A DNA stretch of 34,637 nucleotides. Origin: Candidatus Bathyarchaeota archaeon B24-2. GTDB lineage: Archaea; Thermoproteota; Bathyarchaeia; Bathyarchaeales; B24-2. The stretch is from positions 1 to 34,637 of the forward strand of contig PCNA01000005.1 in the NCBI GenBank assembly GCA_002490245.1. The letters are read 5' to 3'. Both the position numbers and the translations under genes were made by a program. Below, one piece after another: positions 4,998-13,148 of the stretch. Each line of letters begins with the position of its first letter. Within the stretch, counting starts at the first letter, position 1. The notes beneath the pieces are model-generated. The model did no database searches and had not been told where the DNA came from. It was given only the letters and a program-made list of their open reading frames with translations.

Positions 4998-5897
4998 GTG
5001 GAGGTTATGAATGGGAAACTGAGAGGTGTCTTCACTTTCCTTATAACGCCGTTTGAGAAGGCGGATTTCATGAAGGTCGACGAAGACGGGTTAAGGCAGA
5101 ATGTTAGATATCTCAGAGATAGAGGCGTACACGTCCTTGTCCCATGCGGTGGAACAGGCGAAATATACTCGTTAACCGTCGAGGAATGTAAAAGAGTTAT
5201 AGAGATAGTAGCAGAGGAGAAAGGAGGATCGGCTTTGGTGCCTGGCATACCCGCAGGGATAAAATCCGCTGTGGAAGTAGCTAAACATGCAGAGGACATC
5301 GGAGCAGACGCAGTATTAGTTTTTCCACCTCGATACACATCCGAGGAAGGACTATATAGATACTATAAGGAAATAGCTAGGTATACTAGCATCGATCTTA
5401 TGCCTTTCATTCTGGGAGGATTAGAGACCGCTTTACTAAGAAATCCGAACTTCATAAACAGGATCTTGGAGATCGAGCAGATCTCGGCTTTTAAGTATGA
5501 AAGCGCTGACTTATGGACTTTAGGTAAACTGATGAGGTTGGCGGAAAGGAAGGTGAACTGGATCTGCGGTCCAAACTTCTCGGCAAGAGTCTCTGAATGC
5601 TATTTCAGGCTGGGAGCTTCAGGGTTCACGGATGGAATATCGAACTTCGCTCCACAGCTACCAGTAAAACTGTATGAGAGTGCTATTAAAGGCAGATGGG
5701 AGGAGTTTAAAGAGGTAGAGGAAAAACTGGCTAAACTCACGGATCTGAGAAGTAAGGTTGGATCGGTGGCCTTCGTTAAGGCTGCGCTGGATCTTATTGG
5801 GCTGTCCGGAGGCACTGTTAGGCCTCCACTCACGCCAGCAAGCGACACAGAAATATATGAAATAAAGAAGTTACTGTCGGAATTAGGAATCCTATAA
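4998..5897 (+). CDS. Dihydrodipicolinate synthase/KdgD-like aldolase family protein
   Basis: TIM-barrel DHDPS family. 'PCGGTGEIYSLTVEE' motif resembles 5-dehydro-4-deoxyglucarate dehydratase. Schiff-base Lys in 'ISAFKYESAD'. The ATG at 5007, preceded by GGAGG, may be the true start. Confidence 0.85.
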   Translation: MEVMNGKLRGVFTFLITPFEKADFMKVDEDGLRQNVRYLRDRGVHVLVPCGGTGEIYSLTVEECKRVIEIVAEEKGGSALVPGIPAGIKSAVEVAKHAEDIGADAVLVFPPRYTSEEGLYRYYKEIARYTSIDLMPFILGGLETALLRNPNFINRILEIEQISAFKYESADLWTLGKLMRLAERKVNWICGPNFSARVSECYFRLGASGFTDGISNFAPQLPVKLYESAIKGRWEEFKEVEEKLAKLTDLRSKVGSVAFVKAALDLIGLSGGTVRPPLTPASDTEIYEIKKLLSELGIL

Positions 5898-5929: not shown

Positions 5930-7087
5930 TTAATAGTCGATCCCTTTTTTTGAAATGTATTCGTACACTTTTTTCGCCGTTTCTTCCATACCGAAAGCCT
6001 TAAAGAACATTAACGCCTCGACATACGCTTTAGATTTAATCGCTAACCTAGTTTCTTGGCTGATCTTTTCTATCTCTCTAAAGAAGAACTTTATGGCGTA
6101 TTTACTGCTCTTGTTGAAGATTTCAGCCTCCGACTTACCTTCTTCGTAATACTTGTTTACGACCCAATCGTGGATCTTCTGGTAGAGGTCTGGTTCGAAT
6201 ATTCTTAGAATATCCCAAACGAGGAGCATCCAGAAGGTACCTACATTACCTTTCAGTATCTTGCCTTTAGGAAACTTTTCAGCGATCAAATGAAGAGGAG
6301 TCCCCGTGATTCCATGTTGAACGATTCGCGTTGTGAAGCCTTCAGCCTCTATGGCGTCCGCTATCTCCACCGTTCTTTTAAGGTTTATCTTTAGCTGAGG
6401 AACTATCTTCCCTTCAGCATCGACTGTGACCCCATGCTTCGCTCCGTTGGCTATGGCTAGAAAATGTATGTCTATGTCAGCCTTCTTCAATTCTCTCAGG
6501 TAGTGTAGGGCTTCGGCCACTTCGGTATACTCCTTTATGCCTATCTCGCCCACCTCTCCCTCTCTGCCGTAAGGAAAATCTCCAAGACGGTCTTTGATGT
6601 AAGCGTGCAGGTAGATAGCGTTCTCGACCACAGCCTTCAGTCGATCCTTCAAGCTACGAGCCTCACGATCGAATAAGAAGGACGAGTCTACAGCGAAGCT
6701 CGTGAACCCAGCTTCGATGCGGGCATCTATCTCACGCTTTAGGTCTTTTAGCTCGTTTTCCGTACCCTTTTTAACGGTTAGATGGTCTGCATGTAGGACG
6801 TAACCATACCATCCGACGGTTTCGGCCGCTAGTCTAACTCTCTCAGCGAACGTCTTTGGAGTTAGCCCTGTATATCCTCCGTGTAAATTCATCTCGGAAA
6901 GAGCTAACTCCATGATGACTATTTGACCTGTATCTTTGCAGGCTTTAAGAATTCCCTCGATGACCTCGGAAGTTACACGAGGATTAACGGCTAAGATGAT
7001 GTTCTTATATGGGCGAAGGGCCTCGAATAGTATACCACCAGGAAGGGGGTTTCTCGGTTCCTCAAAGAACTTTTGATATTCTTCCAA
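5930..7087 (-). CDS. Class II fructose-bisphosphate/tagatose-bisphosphate aldolase-like protein
   Basis: Zn-ligand-like motifs of class II aldolases: 'YVLHADHLT', 'GEVGEIG', 'AIANGAKHGV', 'IVQHGITGTP', 'KGNVGT'. Confidence 0.8.
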   Translation of the reverse strand: MEEYQKFFEEPRNPLPGGILFEALRPYKNIILAVNPRVTSEVIEGILKACKDTGQIVIMELALSEMNLHGGYTGLTPKTFAERVRLAAETVGWYGYVLHADHLTVKKGTENELKDLKREIDARIEAGFTSFAVDSSFLFDREARSLKDRLKAVVENAIYLHAYIKDRLGDFPYGREGEVGEIGIKEYTEVAEALHYLRELKKADIDIHFLAIANGAKHGVTVDAEGKIVPQLKINLKRTVEIADAIEAEGFTTRIVQHGITGTPLHLIAEKFPKGKILKGNVGTFWMLLVWDILRIFEPDLYQKIHDWVVNKYYEEGKSEAEIFNKSSKYAIKFFFREIEKISQETRLAIKSKAYVEALMFFKAFGMEETAKKVYEYISKKGIDY

Positions 7088-7101
7088 TCGATTCGGTCTC
7101 C

Positions 7102-8067
7102 CTATATAGCTAATTCTTCAGCTAGACGTAACAGTTCGGTATTAAGCGGTTTCTCTTCCTTGATGACCTGTTCTAAATCGTTAAACACTATCTTTTCGTC
7201 TTGAAGGCCTACAACTCCGCTTTCATCGCTCTCTAGCACTTTATCGACGGCATATGATCCAAAGAGGCTGGCTATAAGCCTGCTTCTAGCGGTCGGTGAA
7301 CCTCCTCTTTGGATGTGACCTAGGATAGTCAGCCTTGTTTCGAAGCCTGTCCTCTTGTTGATCATGTCCCTGATCTTTGCAGAGTCGCCGAAACCTTCCG
7401 CGACCACCACTATACTATACTCTTTCTCTTTCTTCCGGCTTCTGATAAGGGTTTGACATATGGAGTCTATATCTCGCTCTATTTCAGGTACTAAGATAAC
7501 CTCCGCTCCAGCCGTCAATCCCACTTCTAGGGCGAGGAACCCTCTTTTTCTACCCATAACTTCAATCACGAAGACCCTGCCGTGAGACATGGCAGTATCC
7601 CTGATCCTATCTATCGCCTGAACCGCAGTGTTTACCGCCGTATCGAAACCTATGGTAGTATCTGTTCCTGCAACATCATTGTCTATGGTCGCTGGGATAC
7701 CGATCACTTGAATTCCGCTGACTCGGTGGAGTTCTAATGCACCTTTAAAGGATCCGTCGCCACCTATCACTAGCAAAGCCTCTATTCGATGATTTTTCAG
7801 GATCTCTGAAGCTTTCTCGATACCTTCCTCGGTCGCGAATTCTGGACATCTCTCAGTCCTCAGGATCGTTCCTCCAAGGTGGATTATACCGCCGACCGTT
7901 CTGAGACCCAGCGGCATGACTTCGTTGTTTAGTAAACCCGCGTATCCTCTTTTAAAACCTAGAACCTCAAGGTTTTTAGGGACTGCTCTCCGAACTATAG
8001 CTCGTATAGCAGCGTTCATTCCAGGTGCGTCACCGCCGCTAGTAACAACCCCTATCTTACTTTTCAT
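7102..8067 (-). CDS. pfkA: 6-phosphofructokinase, PfkA family (ATP-type active-site signature)
   Basis: TSGGDAPGMNAAIRAIVR, IGGDGSFKGA, PATIDNDVAGTDTTIGFDTA, RDTAMSHGRVFVIEVMGR and ILGHIQRGGSPTARSR are PfkA hallmarks. GGDGS (not GGDD) suggests ATP rather than PPi as donor. Confidence 0.93.
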   Translation of the reverse strand: MKSKIGVVTSGGDAPGMNAAIRAIVRRAVPKNLEVLGFKRGYAGLLNNEVMPLGLRTVGGIIHLGGTILRTERCPEFATEEGIEKASEILKNHRIEALLVIGGDGSFKGALELHRVSGIQVIGIPATIDNDVAGTDTTIGFDTAVNTAVQAIDRIRDTAMSHGRVFVIEVMGRKRGFLALEVGLTAGAEVILVPEIERDIDSICQTLIRSRKKEKEYSIVVVAEGFGDSAKIRDMINKRTGFETRLTILGHIQRGGSPTARSRLIASLFGSYAVDKVLESDESGVVGLQDEKIVFNDLEQVIKEEKPLNTELLRLAEELAI

Positions 8068-8611
8068 GGTTAACCCCCTCCTGTGGAGAGGGCTCGCTTA
8101 ATCGATTCGATTCCTCTTTGTATGTTTTTATCCTTTCTGAGATTAGTTGAATGAGCTTCCGCCTTAAACTTTCACCTTTCGCTTTTATCTCTGCTATTTC
8201 TTTAGCTAGCTCGGGATCTTCTATTACGTCTCTAATCCACGCCGTGAAGTCGCCTCTATGAAAGTGGAACTCTAAAGAATCTATCGGTAACATAGCTAAC
8301 TTTTCACGAAGATCGTTTAGACTGAATGCTGAAAGGTTTAGGGGTTTCCCTATATCCCGATAGAAATGGAAGGCTTCTTCGAACCTACATCGTCGATCTG
8401 CAAGTGAATAAAGATTCGTCAACGTCGTCTTCAACTCTTCCCTGAGGGATTTAAGGCCGAGGTTTAAGGCCTTAAGGTCACGTTTGAACCTTTTTTCGTT
8501 CACCTCTCCGGAGGCGTGCATAACCCTTAACTTTGCGATCGTGGACTCGATCGTCGATATAACCCTTCTAAGTTCTTCCACTCTTCTCATTAAACTCTTC
8601 ATCACATCCAC
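8057..8611 (-). CDS. Hypothetical coiled-coil protein
   Basis: 184 aa helical, heptad-rich ORF. Overlaps the pfkA start by about 11 nt and lies directly after a GT4 gene in the same direction, consistent with an operon. Confidence 0.7.
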   Translation of the reverse strand: MDVMKSLMRRVEELRRVISTIESTIAKLRVMHASGEVNEKRFKRDLKALNLGLKSLREELKTTLTNLYSLADRRCRFEEAFHFYRDIGKPLNLSAFSLNDLREKLAMLPIDSLEFHFHRGDFTAWIRDVIEDPELAKEIAEIKAKGESLRRKLIQLISERIKTYKEESNRLSEPSPQEGVNHEK

Positions 8612-9859
8612 TTACTCCACTAGTTCCCGGTATATTCTTAGCGTATCTCGGCTAACCTTCTCCCAAGTGAACATGTTTAGCACCCTCTCTCGAGCATTCC
8701 TTCCGAATTTCATACGCATCTCCTCGTCTAAGAGAAGGATGGAGGTGAACTTCGCTATATCGCTCGGATCGTAAGGATTTATGTGGAAGCCACACTGTTT
8801 CTCACCGCTTGAGATCACCTGTTCTCTGAGCCCACTAATGTCTCTTGCACCGACCACGACTGGTTTTCCCATCGCCATGGCTTCGGTGCATACTATGCCG
8901 AAGGGCTCATATTTTGACGGAAAAACGCAGACGTCTGACGCGGCGTAGTAACCTATCTTTACGTCTTCTGCTAAGAAGTCAAACTTGAGGATCACCTTAT
9001 CTTCTAGACCCATCTTAGCTACATCGCTCTTGAGAAGATCCTGTTGGTCTCCGACGCCGACTATAACGAGCTTGGCGTTTGGCACGTCTCTCAAGATGTG
9101 GGGCATGGCTTGCAGGAGCATGTCTGCTCCTTTAACCCAAGTGAGTCTACCGATGAAGAGAATCATTAATTCATCGTCCTTAACTCCTAGACTCTCCCTA
9201 ACTTTCTTTCTCTCCTCTTCGGAAACCGCTTCTGGAGAATACTTCTCCACGTCTATTCCGTTATAGACGACCCTGATCTTCTTTTCTTCGTAGCCTAGAT
9301 GCACGAGGTGGTCGCGCATCGCATAGCTCACGGTAATTATTCTATCAGCTTCTTCTGCCGCAATTCTCTCCAGCCTCTTTACCGTCTCGGAGCCTCCACC
9401 TGTCCGTCCCTCTTCAGTGCTATGAATATGAAAGACGAAGGGTTTTCCTATCCCATTACTCGATAAAATGCCGCCTATACTCCCGAGCCAGTCGTGAGAC
9501 ACAACGATGTCTATTTCCCGCTTCTCGAACCTTATTAGGTCGTTTACGAGCTTGCTAGCTGAAAGAACGTTATAGAGAAAGACTTCACCGAAGAATCCTC
9601 TACCTTCCGGAGACCACTTTCTAACTTCCTCAGGAATGAACATCGGGAGGAGGAGGCCTATATTTATATTTGCGACTATAGGACGGTGGACTTCAACCCC
9701 CTTATATATATCCCTAGTCGGTAGGTCGCCCTTATGCATCGAGAAAACTGTCACATCATGTCCAGCTTTTACGAACTCCCTTGTGATGTAGTTTGCGTAT
9801 GTTCCGAGCCCTCCTACTACGAACGGCGGAAACTCGTAGACAAAGAATGCAATATTCAT
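8612..9859 (-). CDS. Glycosyltransferase family 4 (glycogen/starch-synthase-like)
   Basis: 'EFPPFVVGGLGTYANYITREFVKAGHDVTVFS', 'LFIGRLTWVKGADMLLQAMP', 'CVFPSKYEPFGIVCTEAMAMGKPVVV' (E-x7-E type motif). Confidence 0.92.
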   Translation of the reverse strand: MNIAFFVYEFPPFVVGGLGTYANYITREFVKAGHDVTVFSMHKGDLPTRDIYKGVEVHRPIVANINIGLLLPMFIPEEVRKWSPEGRGFFGEVFLYNVLSASKLVNDLIRFEKREIDIVVSHDWLGSIGGILSSNGIGKPFVFHIHSTEEGRTGGGSETVKRLERIAAEEADRIITVSYAMRDHLVHLGYEEKKIRVVYNGIDVEKYSPEAVSEEERKKVRESLGVKDDELMILFIGRLTWVKGADMLLQAMPHILRDVPNAKLVIVGVGDQQDLLKSDVAKMGLEDKVILKFDFLAEDVKIGYYAASDVCVFPSKYEPFGIVCTEAMAMGKPVVVGARDISGLREQVISSGEKQCGFHINPYDPSDIAKFTSILLLDEEMRMKFGRNARERVLNMFTWEKVSRDTLRIYRELVE

Positions 9860-10002: not shown

Positions 10003-10536
10003 ATGGAAGTATTAGAGGTTGATGGTCGTAAGGTTAGGCTTGTTAAAGGCGACATCACAGATCTTGAGGTGGACGCTATAGTTAACGCGGCTAACTCCTC
10101 CTTGAAGATGGGAGGTGGGGTCGCTGGCGCCATCTTAAGGAAAGGAGGACGGCAAATACAGGAAGAATGTGATAGGATAGGGTATTGTCCGGTAGGTTCA
10201 GCGGTAATCACTTCTGGAGGAAGGTTGAAGGCGAGGTACGTCATTCATGCTGTAGGACCAAGGTATGGTGAAGGAAATGAGGATGAAAAATTGAGAGGTG
10301 CCACGCTCAGCAGCCTGAAACTAGCAGACGAGAAAGGTCTATCTACGATAGCCTTTCCGGCTATATCCACTGGAATCTTCGGTTTCCCTAAAGATAGGTG
10401 TGCTGAAATCATGCTCTCAGAAACCGTGAAATATCTTAAAGGGAAAACTGGAATTAAGGAAGTGATCTTCTGTTTATACGACGATGAAACTTTTAACATA
10501 TTTGCTGGAACTCTAGAAAGGATAGCCAGTAGATGA
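10003..10536 (+). CDS. Macro-domain (Appr-1''-p/ADP-ribose-binding) protein
   Basis: 'GDITDLEVDAIVNAANSSLKMGGGVAGAILRKGG' and 'IAFPAISTGIFGFP' are canonical macro-domain motifs. Confidence 0.95.
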   Translation: MEVLEVDGRKVRLVKGDITDLEVDAIVNAANSSLKMGGGVAGAILRKGGRQIQEECDRIGYCPVGSAVITSGGRLKARYVIHAVGPRYGEGNEDEKLRGATLSSLKLADEKGLSTIAFPAISTGIFGFPKDRCAEIMLSETVKYLKGKTGIKEVIFCLYDDETFNIFAGTLERIASR

Positions 10537-10652: not shown

Positions 10653-13148
10653 TTGCCCTGCGGCTATATGGGCAGAATACTTCACGTGAACCTCTCTACA
10701 GGCGAGATCGTAGAAGAGGAGTTAAACTGGGATATCGCGGGAGACTACATTGGTGGACGGGGATACTCGGCCAAACTGCTATACGATAACCTTAAACCCA
10801 GAATAGACCCTCTCAGCCCAGACAACATACTCATAGTTTCGACCGGACCGTTAACCGGTACAAACGTTCCGACGTCAGGCCGCTTTTGCATAGCCTCTAA
10901 GAGCCCGTTGACTGGAACCATATTCGATTCCCAGTGTGGCGGTACGTTCGGTTGGGCTATGAAACGGTCAGGCTTCGACCTATTCATTATTAAGGGTAGA
11001 AGCGAGAAACCCGTCTATCTCTACGTAAAGGACGGTAAAGCAGAATTAAGGTCGGCGGAGCACTTGACTAGCAAGCTTACAAGCGAGGTTGAAGACATCT
11101 TGAAGAGCGAGCTCAGCGAGAATGTTAGGGTTTTGTCGATAGGCCCGGCTGGAGAGAACCTGGTTAGAATAGCGTCGATAATAAGCGATAAGCATCGCGC
11201 AGCTGGGAGAGGCGGATTAGGGGCGGTCATGGGTTCGAAGAATCTTAAGGCTATAGCCGTCGAGGGAAAGAGGAGGATCGAAGTAGCGAACCCTAAAGCG
11301 CTAGCCAGAGAAGTGAAGAAGGTTCAGGAGATCCTGAGGAGAAACGCGCTTACCGGAGGTTCTCTAACGAGATATGGGACAGGATGCTTGGTGAACGTAG
11401 TTAACAAGTTCGGAGTGTTTCCTACCATGAACTTCAATCACGGTTACTTCGAGCATGCGGAGAATATCAGCGGTGAAACCTTAAGGGAAAGGTTACTCGT
11501 GAAGAGTGAGGGATGTTATGCATGCCCCATCAGGTGTGGGAGGATAATACGTTTAAGCAAAGGAATATACAAGGGTGAATTAGCTGGGGGACCCGAATAC
11601 GAGACCCTATGGAGCTTAGGCGCTCAGTGTGGGCTCAGCGATCTAGAGGAGATAGCTGTCGCCAACGACCTCTGCAATCGGTACGGGATAGACACCATAT
11701 CTTTCGGAAACGCTCTTGGTTACCTCATAGAAGCACACGAGAAAGGTTTGGTCGACGACAAGGTTCTAGGCGATGTTAAGCTTGATTGGGGTAGAGTAAA
11801 CCTTTCTCGTCTGGTTATGTTGACCGCGTTGAAGGAGGGAATCGGGGAACATATCGCCGAGGGTGTAAGGAGGATGTCAGAGAAATTTGGAGGCGAGGAA
11901 TTCGCTATGCACGTTAAGGGCTTGGAGCTTCCTGCTTATGACCCTAGAGGGGCTAAAGGTATGGGATTAGCTTATGCCACTTCAAACCGCGGAGGATGCC
12001 ACCTACGCGCCTACATGGTCATGAGCGAGATACTGAGCTTGCCACAATACCTCGACCCCTTAAAATATGAGGGAAAACCTGAACTGGTTAAACTTATGCA
12101 GGATGTCTACGCAGTTCTTGACAGTATGATAGTCTGCAAGTTTACAAGCTTCGCTCTCTTCAGATCTATGCGCTATGAACCTGGACCTTACGCTAGATTA
12201 CTCACTACGGCTACAGGCTTCTTCTTCGACGACGAGGAATTCCGTAAAGCTGGCGAGAGAATATACAACCTTGAACGCCTCTTTAACGTTCGAGAAGGGT
12301 TTAGCAGGATAGACGATACCTTACCTAAAAGGCTGCTGAGTGAACCTATACCGGACGGGCCAGCTAAGGGTGGAATATTAGACTTAAACATGATGCTCGA
12401 GGAGTACTACGTCTTGAGAGGATGGGACGTCAACGGCGTTCCTACAGACTATAAACTCCTTTCCTTAGGTATAATCACTAAGCCGCGCTGGCCGAAACTT
12501 CAGGTAGCACTAGACTTGAGAGATCTCGACGAAGCGTTAAGGATAGCAGAGGCCGCATATAGAGGCGGTGCGGAGTTTCTCGAAGCTGGAACTCCGCTCA
12601 TCAAAAGCGTGGGAATAAGATGCGTCAGTGAACTTAAGAAGCGCTTCCCCAACGCTGTGGTGGTGGCGGACCTTAAGACGCTCGATGTGGGTTGGATGGA
12701 GACAGAGATAGCTGCGCAAGCAGGGGCAGACATAGTCGGGATCTCGGGGCTGTCGAACGATAATACTATAAGGGACGCTGTAGGATGCGCCCGAAAATAT
12801 GGGGTAAAGATCATGTGCGACCTCATAGAGGTTAAGGATCCGTTGAGGAGGGCAAAGGAGCTCGAGAAGCTGGGGGTAGACTTCATCTGCCTCCATAGTG
12901 GTATAGACGCACAAAGGGATAGGGAGCAAGTAATCGACAGGAAAGTCGAGACCATAAAAAAGATAGTCGAAAGCGTCGACATACCAGTCGCTGTCGCCGG
13001 AGGCATAAGGGCAGATACGGCGGCTAAGGTCGTTAAGGCTGGAGCTAAGATAATCATAGTCGGTGGAGCCATCACTAGAGCTTCAGATCCTAAGGAGGCT
13101 GCATCCATCATAAAAAGGGTGATCGAAGCAGAATACAGAAACCTCTAA
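10653..13148 (+). CDS. Fusion: aldehyde (formaldehyde) ferredoxin oxidoreductase + 3-hexulose-6-phosphate synthase
   Basis: 831 aa single ORF with TTG start. AOR N-domain 'GYMGRILHVNLSTGEI', 'GPLTGTNVPTSGRFCIASKSPLTG', 'HRAAGRGGLGAVMGSKNLKAIAV', CxxCxxxC in 'GCYACPIRCGR', distal Cys in 'LDSMIVCKF', canonical C-end 'MLEEYYVLRGWDVNGVPT'. From about aa 614 an HPS domain: 'KLQVALDL', 'EAGTPLIKSVG', 'VVADLKTLDVG', 'CLHSGIDAQ', 'VAVAGGI', 'IIVGGAIT'. Confidence 0.93.
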   Translation: MPCGYMGRILHVNLSTGEIVEEELNWDIAGDYIGGRGYSAKLLYDNLKPRIDPLSPDNILIVSTGPLTGTNVPTSGRFCIASKSPLTGTIFDSQCGGTFGWAMKRSGFDLFIIKGRSEKPVYLYVKDGKAELRSAEHLTSKLTSEVEDILKSELSENVRVLSIGPAGENLVRIASIISDKHRAAGRGGLGAVMGSKNLKAIAVEGKRRIEVANPKALAREVKKVQEILRRNALTGGSLTRYGTGCLVNVVNKFGVFPTMNFNHGYFEHAENISGETLRERLLVKSEGCYACPIRCGRIIRLSKGIYKGELAGGPEYETLWSLGAQCGLSDLEEIAVANDLCNRYGIDTISFGNALGYLIEAHEKGLVDDKVLGDVKLDWGRVNLSRLVMLTALKEGIGEHIAEGVRRMSEKFGGEEFAMHVKGLELPAYDPRGAKGMGLAYATSNRGGCHLRAYMVMSEILSLPQYLDPLKYEGKPELVKLMQDVYAVLDSMIVCKFTSFALFRSMRYEPGPYARLLTTATGFFFDDEEFRKAGERIYNLERLFNVREGFSRIDDTLPKRLLSEPIPDGPAKGGILDLNMMLEEYYVLRGWDVNGVPTDYKLLSLGIITKPRWPKLQVALDLRDLDEALRIAEAAYRGGAEFLEAGTPLIKSVGIRCVSELKKRFPNAVVVADLKTLDVGWMETEIAAQAGADIVGISGLSNDNTIRDAVGCARKYGVKIMCDLIEVKDPLRRAKELEKLGVDFICLHSGIDAQRDREQVIDRKVETIKKIVESVDIPVAVAGGIRADTAAKVVKAGAKIIIVGGAITRASDPKEAASIIKRVIEAEYRNL

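Follow-up and report, generated by a model that had tools for sequence, protein, structure and literature searches.

A conserved archaeal fusion of an aldehyde:ferredoxin oxidoreductase with a predicted 3-hexulose-6-phosphate synthase

In many archaea the classical pentose phosphate pathway is missing, and their ribose is believed to come from the RuMP pathway run in reverse, a route that releases formaldehyde; to our knowledge, it is not settled how cells without Fae dispose of this product. Reverse RuMP chemistry in Thermococcus and the Thermococcales supplies ribulose-5-phosphate (Ru5P) and releases formaldehyde (PMC12628685). For the Culexarchaeia, it has been suggested that RuMP formaldehyde is converted to formate by an aldehyde:ferredoxin oxidoreductase (AOR), with no fusion between the enzymes involved (PMC9723716).

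Several proteins are already known in which 3-hexulose-6-phosphate synthase (HPS) is joined to another enzyme. In Pyrococcus and Thermococcus the partner is the isomerase PHI (NF041755; structure 9lj9), and elsewhere it is Fae (PRK13307) or an RraA-like protein (PRK07028). The protein described here has the HPS domain, the RuMP chemistry and the one-carbon partner formaldehyde in common with HPS-PHI, but its second part is an oxidoreductase rather than an isomerase, and PHI is encoded separately in the genomes that carry it. The Fae of Fae-HPS likewise captures released formaldehyde, although by non-redox conjugation to tetrahydromethanopterin, whereas an AOR partner would oxidize it to formate. 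Characterized AORs, represented by 1aor, the Aromatoleum enzyme 8c0z and that of Thermoanaerobacter X514, are stand-alone or multi-subunit proteins without an HPS domain. In contrast to the separate enzymes proposed for the Culexarchaeia, both activities would reside in one protein. We favor, at moderate confidence, the reading that this AOR-HPS fusion is a bifunctional enzyme of pentose-phosphate synthesis, which would combine reverse RuMP with oxidation of the formaldehyde released.

Gene anatomy and distribution of the fusion

The window, which is the whole stretch of 34,637 nucleotides analyzed from Candidatus Bathyarchaeota archaeon B24-2, carries at 10653-13148 (+) a single uninterrupted frame of 831 codons with a TTG start and a TAA stop. 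A sequence-only reading of this DNA had described one frame in which a complete AOR is followed by an HPS barrel from about residue 614 (nt 12492), and domain searches agree on both counts. Pfam places AFOR_N at aa 7-205 (E 8e-81) and AFOR_C at aa 221-607 (E 3e-144), which together make up the tungsten-type oxidoreductase part (10671..12473, +). The OMPdecase/HUMPS barrel begins six residues later and spans aa 614-818 (E 2.5e-35). NCBIfam assigns aa 616-824 to HxlA (TIGR03128), with 203 bits for the whole protein and 207 for the domain alone against a cut-off of 200. On the basis of Pfam, NCBIfam and conserved residues, we delimit the predicted HPS part as aa 614-824 (12492..13124, +) and the linker as aa 608-613 (12474..12491, +), which is short and nearly constant in length across the fusion family. 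No in-frame ATG, GTG or TTG occurs between aa 588 and 622, and a separately made HPS part is therefore unlikely. Models for HPS-PHI, Fae-HPS and HPS-RraA fusions score far under their cut-offs for this protein, whose partner domain is an AFOR, and Rfam gives no match in the window.

We looked for the same architecture in 398 genomes of the phylum and 257 of the class, two samples that partly overlap. In the phylum sample, genomes were counted as carriers if their HPS match reached E<=1e-74 and lay in an ORF either fusion-sized or truncated at the edge of a contig; 29 of the 398 qualify, including that of the window itself. The class sample contributes six more, for a total of 35. The AOR part lies in the same ORF as HPS in 34 of these, a few being partly truncated at contig ends; in the remaining genome, G181, the contig ends before the AOR part. 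The carriers, among them Thermoprotei archaeon B19_G17, are spread over at least nine families (f1, f9, f11 and f70 of the window's own class, together with f19, f20, f22, f38 and f43), and a scan of the contig collection added only a record of genome G222. An alignment across the junction is gapless except for one residue missing in G005 just upstream of the linker. We conclude that the AOR-HPS fusion is real and conserved. The sequence-only reading had suspected that it might be undescribed, and a literature search of open-access papers indeed returned no published description. The joining of these two known enzymes thus appears to be undescribed, although protein databases may hold the architecture unremarked.

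Gene neighborhoods vary among the carriers. A MoaD/ThiS-family gene lies divergently before the fusion at 14 loci from families f19, f38 and f43, and MoaD genes of archaea are often found together with AOR and cofactor genes (PMC2948915). In f38 and f43, the fusion has CTP synthase as its convergent neighbor. At the window's own locus, the neighbors include no MoaD, CTP synthase or RuMP gene. A macro-domain (ADP-ribose binding) protein (10003-10536, +) lies directly upstream, and ribosomal protein S6e is also nearby. The opposite strand carries a bacterial-type ATP-dependent 6-phosphofructokinase (7102-8067, -; TIGR02482 over cut-off), an adjoining divergent class-II aldolase-like protein (5930-7087, -), a protein without assigned function (8057-8611, -) and a glycogen-synthase-like glycosyltransferase (8612-9859, -). 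This sugar-phosphate cluster (5930-9859, -) is unusual in an archaeon. The neighborhoods of the PHI genes (DHH, CbiQ/ABC transport, EF-2) offer no metabolic hint.

The oxidoreductase part and its candidate substrate

The 4Fe-4S ligands expected of a complete AOR, a CxxCxxxC motif plus a distal cysteine, are present as C288, C291, C295 and C495. Of the 35 fusion sequences, all that cover this region keep these residues without exception, and likewise T243, E317, Y429 and H450. The latter four correspond to T243, E313, Y427 and H448 of Pyrococcus furiosus AOR, which have been named as the second-shell set (PMC12096430). Between close pairs, dN/dS is 0.03-0.13 for the AOR part and 0.005-0.16 for the HPS part, indicating that both are under purifying selection.

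The sequence-only reading had left the label open between aldehyde and formaldehyde oxidoreductase (FOR), and the evidence favors the former. Judged by scores only, the AOR half is closer to 1aor (589 bits) than to FOR (1b25, 368 bits), with which it has the superfamily in common and which counts formaldehyde among its substrates. In a tree built by a quick method without bootstrap and with FOR left out, 17 fusion AORs form one clade (SH-aLRT 100), a subclade of its own inside a 98% group with P. furiosus AOR, Aromatoleum AOR, 9mqx, 9g7j and Haloferax WOR83. By score and tree, then, this half is an AOR sensu stricto, and it shares the cofactor and cluster ligands, second-shell residues and tree position of the characterized enzymes; a tungsten cofactor and ferredoxin-linked aldehyde oxidation are accordingly predicted. 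The fusion clade differs from P. furiosus AOR in lacking the bridging-Fe ligands E332/H383. It also carries an insertion at aa 503-509 (about nt 12159-12179), after the fourth cluster cysteine, that is confined to this clade when compared with AOR sensu stricto.

A weak affinity to FOR is no argument against formaldehyde as substrate, since one review calls formaldehyde into question as the native substrate even of FOR (PMC12096430). Nor is the AOR clade restricted to other aldehydes, a circumstance that would have spoken against the sequence-only reading. The X514 enzyme oxidizes formaldehyde with a Km of 93 uM and a Vmax of 25 U/mg (PMC10816221), and Aromatoleum AORAa does so at 4.1 U/mg (PMC6365974). 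Enzymes of this clade nevertheless mostly favor longer aldehydes over formaldehyde, as X514 AOR does with acetaldehyde (Km 9.7 uM; PMC10816221).

The content of the fusion genomes, assessed by family searches, bears on this question. Of the 29 carriers in the phylum sample, 22 have no other HPS at E<=1e-10, so that the fusion presumably performs the HPS work of the cell. PHI is found over cut-off in 26 of the 29, the exceptions being the window's genome (G000), G005 and G210. Two of these three encode double-SIS proteins that NCBIfam matches best to PHI, at a score under the cut-off: one of 410 aa in the window's genome (L148, contig C1, 992-2221, -) and one in G005 (L149, contig C63, 1358-2470, +). 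They are possibly divergent tandem PHIs. Fae occurs in five of the 29 genomes, all from f43, and is absent from the other 24; a transketolase N-terminal domain is absent from nine of 12 genomes, including the window's own, and present in three from f19. Some of the genomes are incomplete, and single absences are therefore weak. Some fusion genomes also contain an HPS protein of 430-440 aa, the size of PRK07028.

A formaldehyde shared by the two parts is the most economical reading of the fusion and fits the content of these genomes, which have PHI, usually lack transketolase, mostly lack Fae and usually encode no HPS besides the fusion. The corresponding proposal of the sequence-only reading is strengthened to this extent, while the broad-spectrum character of the AOR clade leaves it short of proof.

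The strongest competitor takes up precisely this point. The AOR part may be an ordinary broad-spectrum enzyme acting on other aldehydes, fused to HPS for stoichiometry, stability or co-regulation rather than for a shared substrate. Its placement among AORs sensu stricto, which are broad-spectrum (PMC12096430), and the several further AORs in the same genomes agree with such a role. However, the linker, both active sites and the near-exclusive HPS role have been kept over at least nine families, and formaldehyde is the obvious metabolite common to both domains; we consider this competitor rather doubtful. As for the window's genome, it encodes two proteins closely related to P. furiosus WOR5 (L006 on contig C27 and L007 on contig C73) and four other complete AOR-family genes (L002-L005).

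Alternatively, the fusion could serve assimilation, with the AOR part reducing formate by means of low-potential ferredoxin, or with formaldehyde coming from another source, and the HPS part fixing the formaldehyde on Ru5P. Some AORs do reduce acids (PMC12096430), and in Desulfurococcus amylolyticus formate has been proposed to enter via formaldehyde and RuMP by means of different enzymes (PMC7143981). Yet the formate/formaldehyde potential of about -450 to -650 mV (PMC7143981) is generally uphill from ferredoxin, and without a transketolase N-terminal domain in nine of the 12 genomes, cyclic RuMP regeneration of Ru5P is not apparent. This reverse use, which the sequence-only reading had offered as a second option, is thermodynamically the less likely one, and we judge assimilation to be improbable.

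The synthase part and the descent of the fusion

A third alternative concerns the C-terminal barrel, which might have another activity of the OMPDC suprafamily, as a decarboxylase or a different aldolase, and be no true HPS. The TIGR03128 score, barely over its cut-off, leaves some room for this. The residues point the other way. D621, E644, D673, K675, D678 and H748 are invariant in all 35 fusions, which agrees with the earlier description of a complete barrel. The residues D723, I751 and A782, at three positions diagnostic of HPS as against 3-keto-L-gulonate-6-phosphate decarboxylase (KGPDC), are likewise HPS-type in 35 of 35; we take these positions to be those of KGPDC E112, R139 and T169, in agreement with the 1xbx/1xby mutants. 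The best PDB match of this part is the HPS 9lj9 (E 7e-65), against only 6e-18 for an engineered KGPDC, and PHI, as noted above, co-occurs in most of the genomes. A non-HPS barrel is thus very improbable, and we predict that the C-terminal part is an HPS active on formaldehyde and Ru5P.

On the HPS tree, the fused domains cluster with one another, but a long-branch stand-alone HPS from genome G085 nests among them. The argument for a single origin is accordingly based on the AOR tree and on the linker. The G085 gene (locus L079, 5864-6517, +) adjoins a MoaD/ThiS-family gene (5488-5790, -) positioned as at many fusion loci, and it may therefore have lost its AOR part secondarily. These trees are most simply read as a single fusion event, after which the gene would have been inherited for the most part vertically, with loss or some transfer. 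An assembly chimera or a frameshift, the latter named by the sequence-only reading as a possible objection, might be suspected from the metagenome-type contig and a genome in 92 contigs. Either is excluded for practical purposes by the same ORF in 34 other genomes, two of which have it on contigs as long as 1.32 and 1.02 Mb, and by the single-origin tree.

A candidate route to pentose phosphates

If the favored bifunctional role in pentose-phosphate synthesis is correct, PHI would convert fructose-6-phosphate to hexulose-6-phosphate, and the HPS part would then cleave hexulose-6-phosphate to Ru5P and formaldehyde. The W-pterin site of the AOR part would oxidize formaldehyde to formate, and ferredoxin would receive the two electrons by way of the 4Fe-4S cluster of this part. 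Such an oxidation would both detoxify formaldehyde and pull the unfavorable cleavage toward Ru5P.

The cell could excrete the formate or put it to use; as a further guess, formate-dependent PurP would consume it in making purines. PurP-type DUF1246 is found in 16 of 18 fusion genomes, but PurP also occurs in control archaea without a known fusion and does not discriminate. PurT searches gave sub-cut-off matches in all genomes, with only weak ones in that of the window. Folate formate ligase (formate-tetrahydrofolate ligase) was considered as a formate sink and rejected, being absent from all 12 genomes searched.

A bolder version can be envisaged, in which the fusion acts as a redox-driven pentose synthase in several archaeal lineages. 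Hexulose-6-phosphate would be split, formaldehyde would be handed directly to the tungsten site, and ferredoxin reduction would drive pentose synthesis while formate for purines is formed alongside. We regard this version as tentative. AlphaFold2 with a four-sequence input gave a mean pLDDT of 48.9, in which the HPS part alone was usable and the AOR part failed.

The fusion brings an oxidoreductase into the small set of known HPS partners. Its conserved joining of HPS to a tungsten aldehyde oxidase in one polypeptide offers a concrete, testable answer to the question of formaldehyde disposal, and if that answer is true, tungsten becomes part of nucleotide precursor synthesis.
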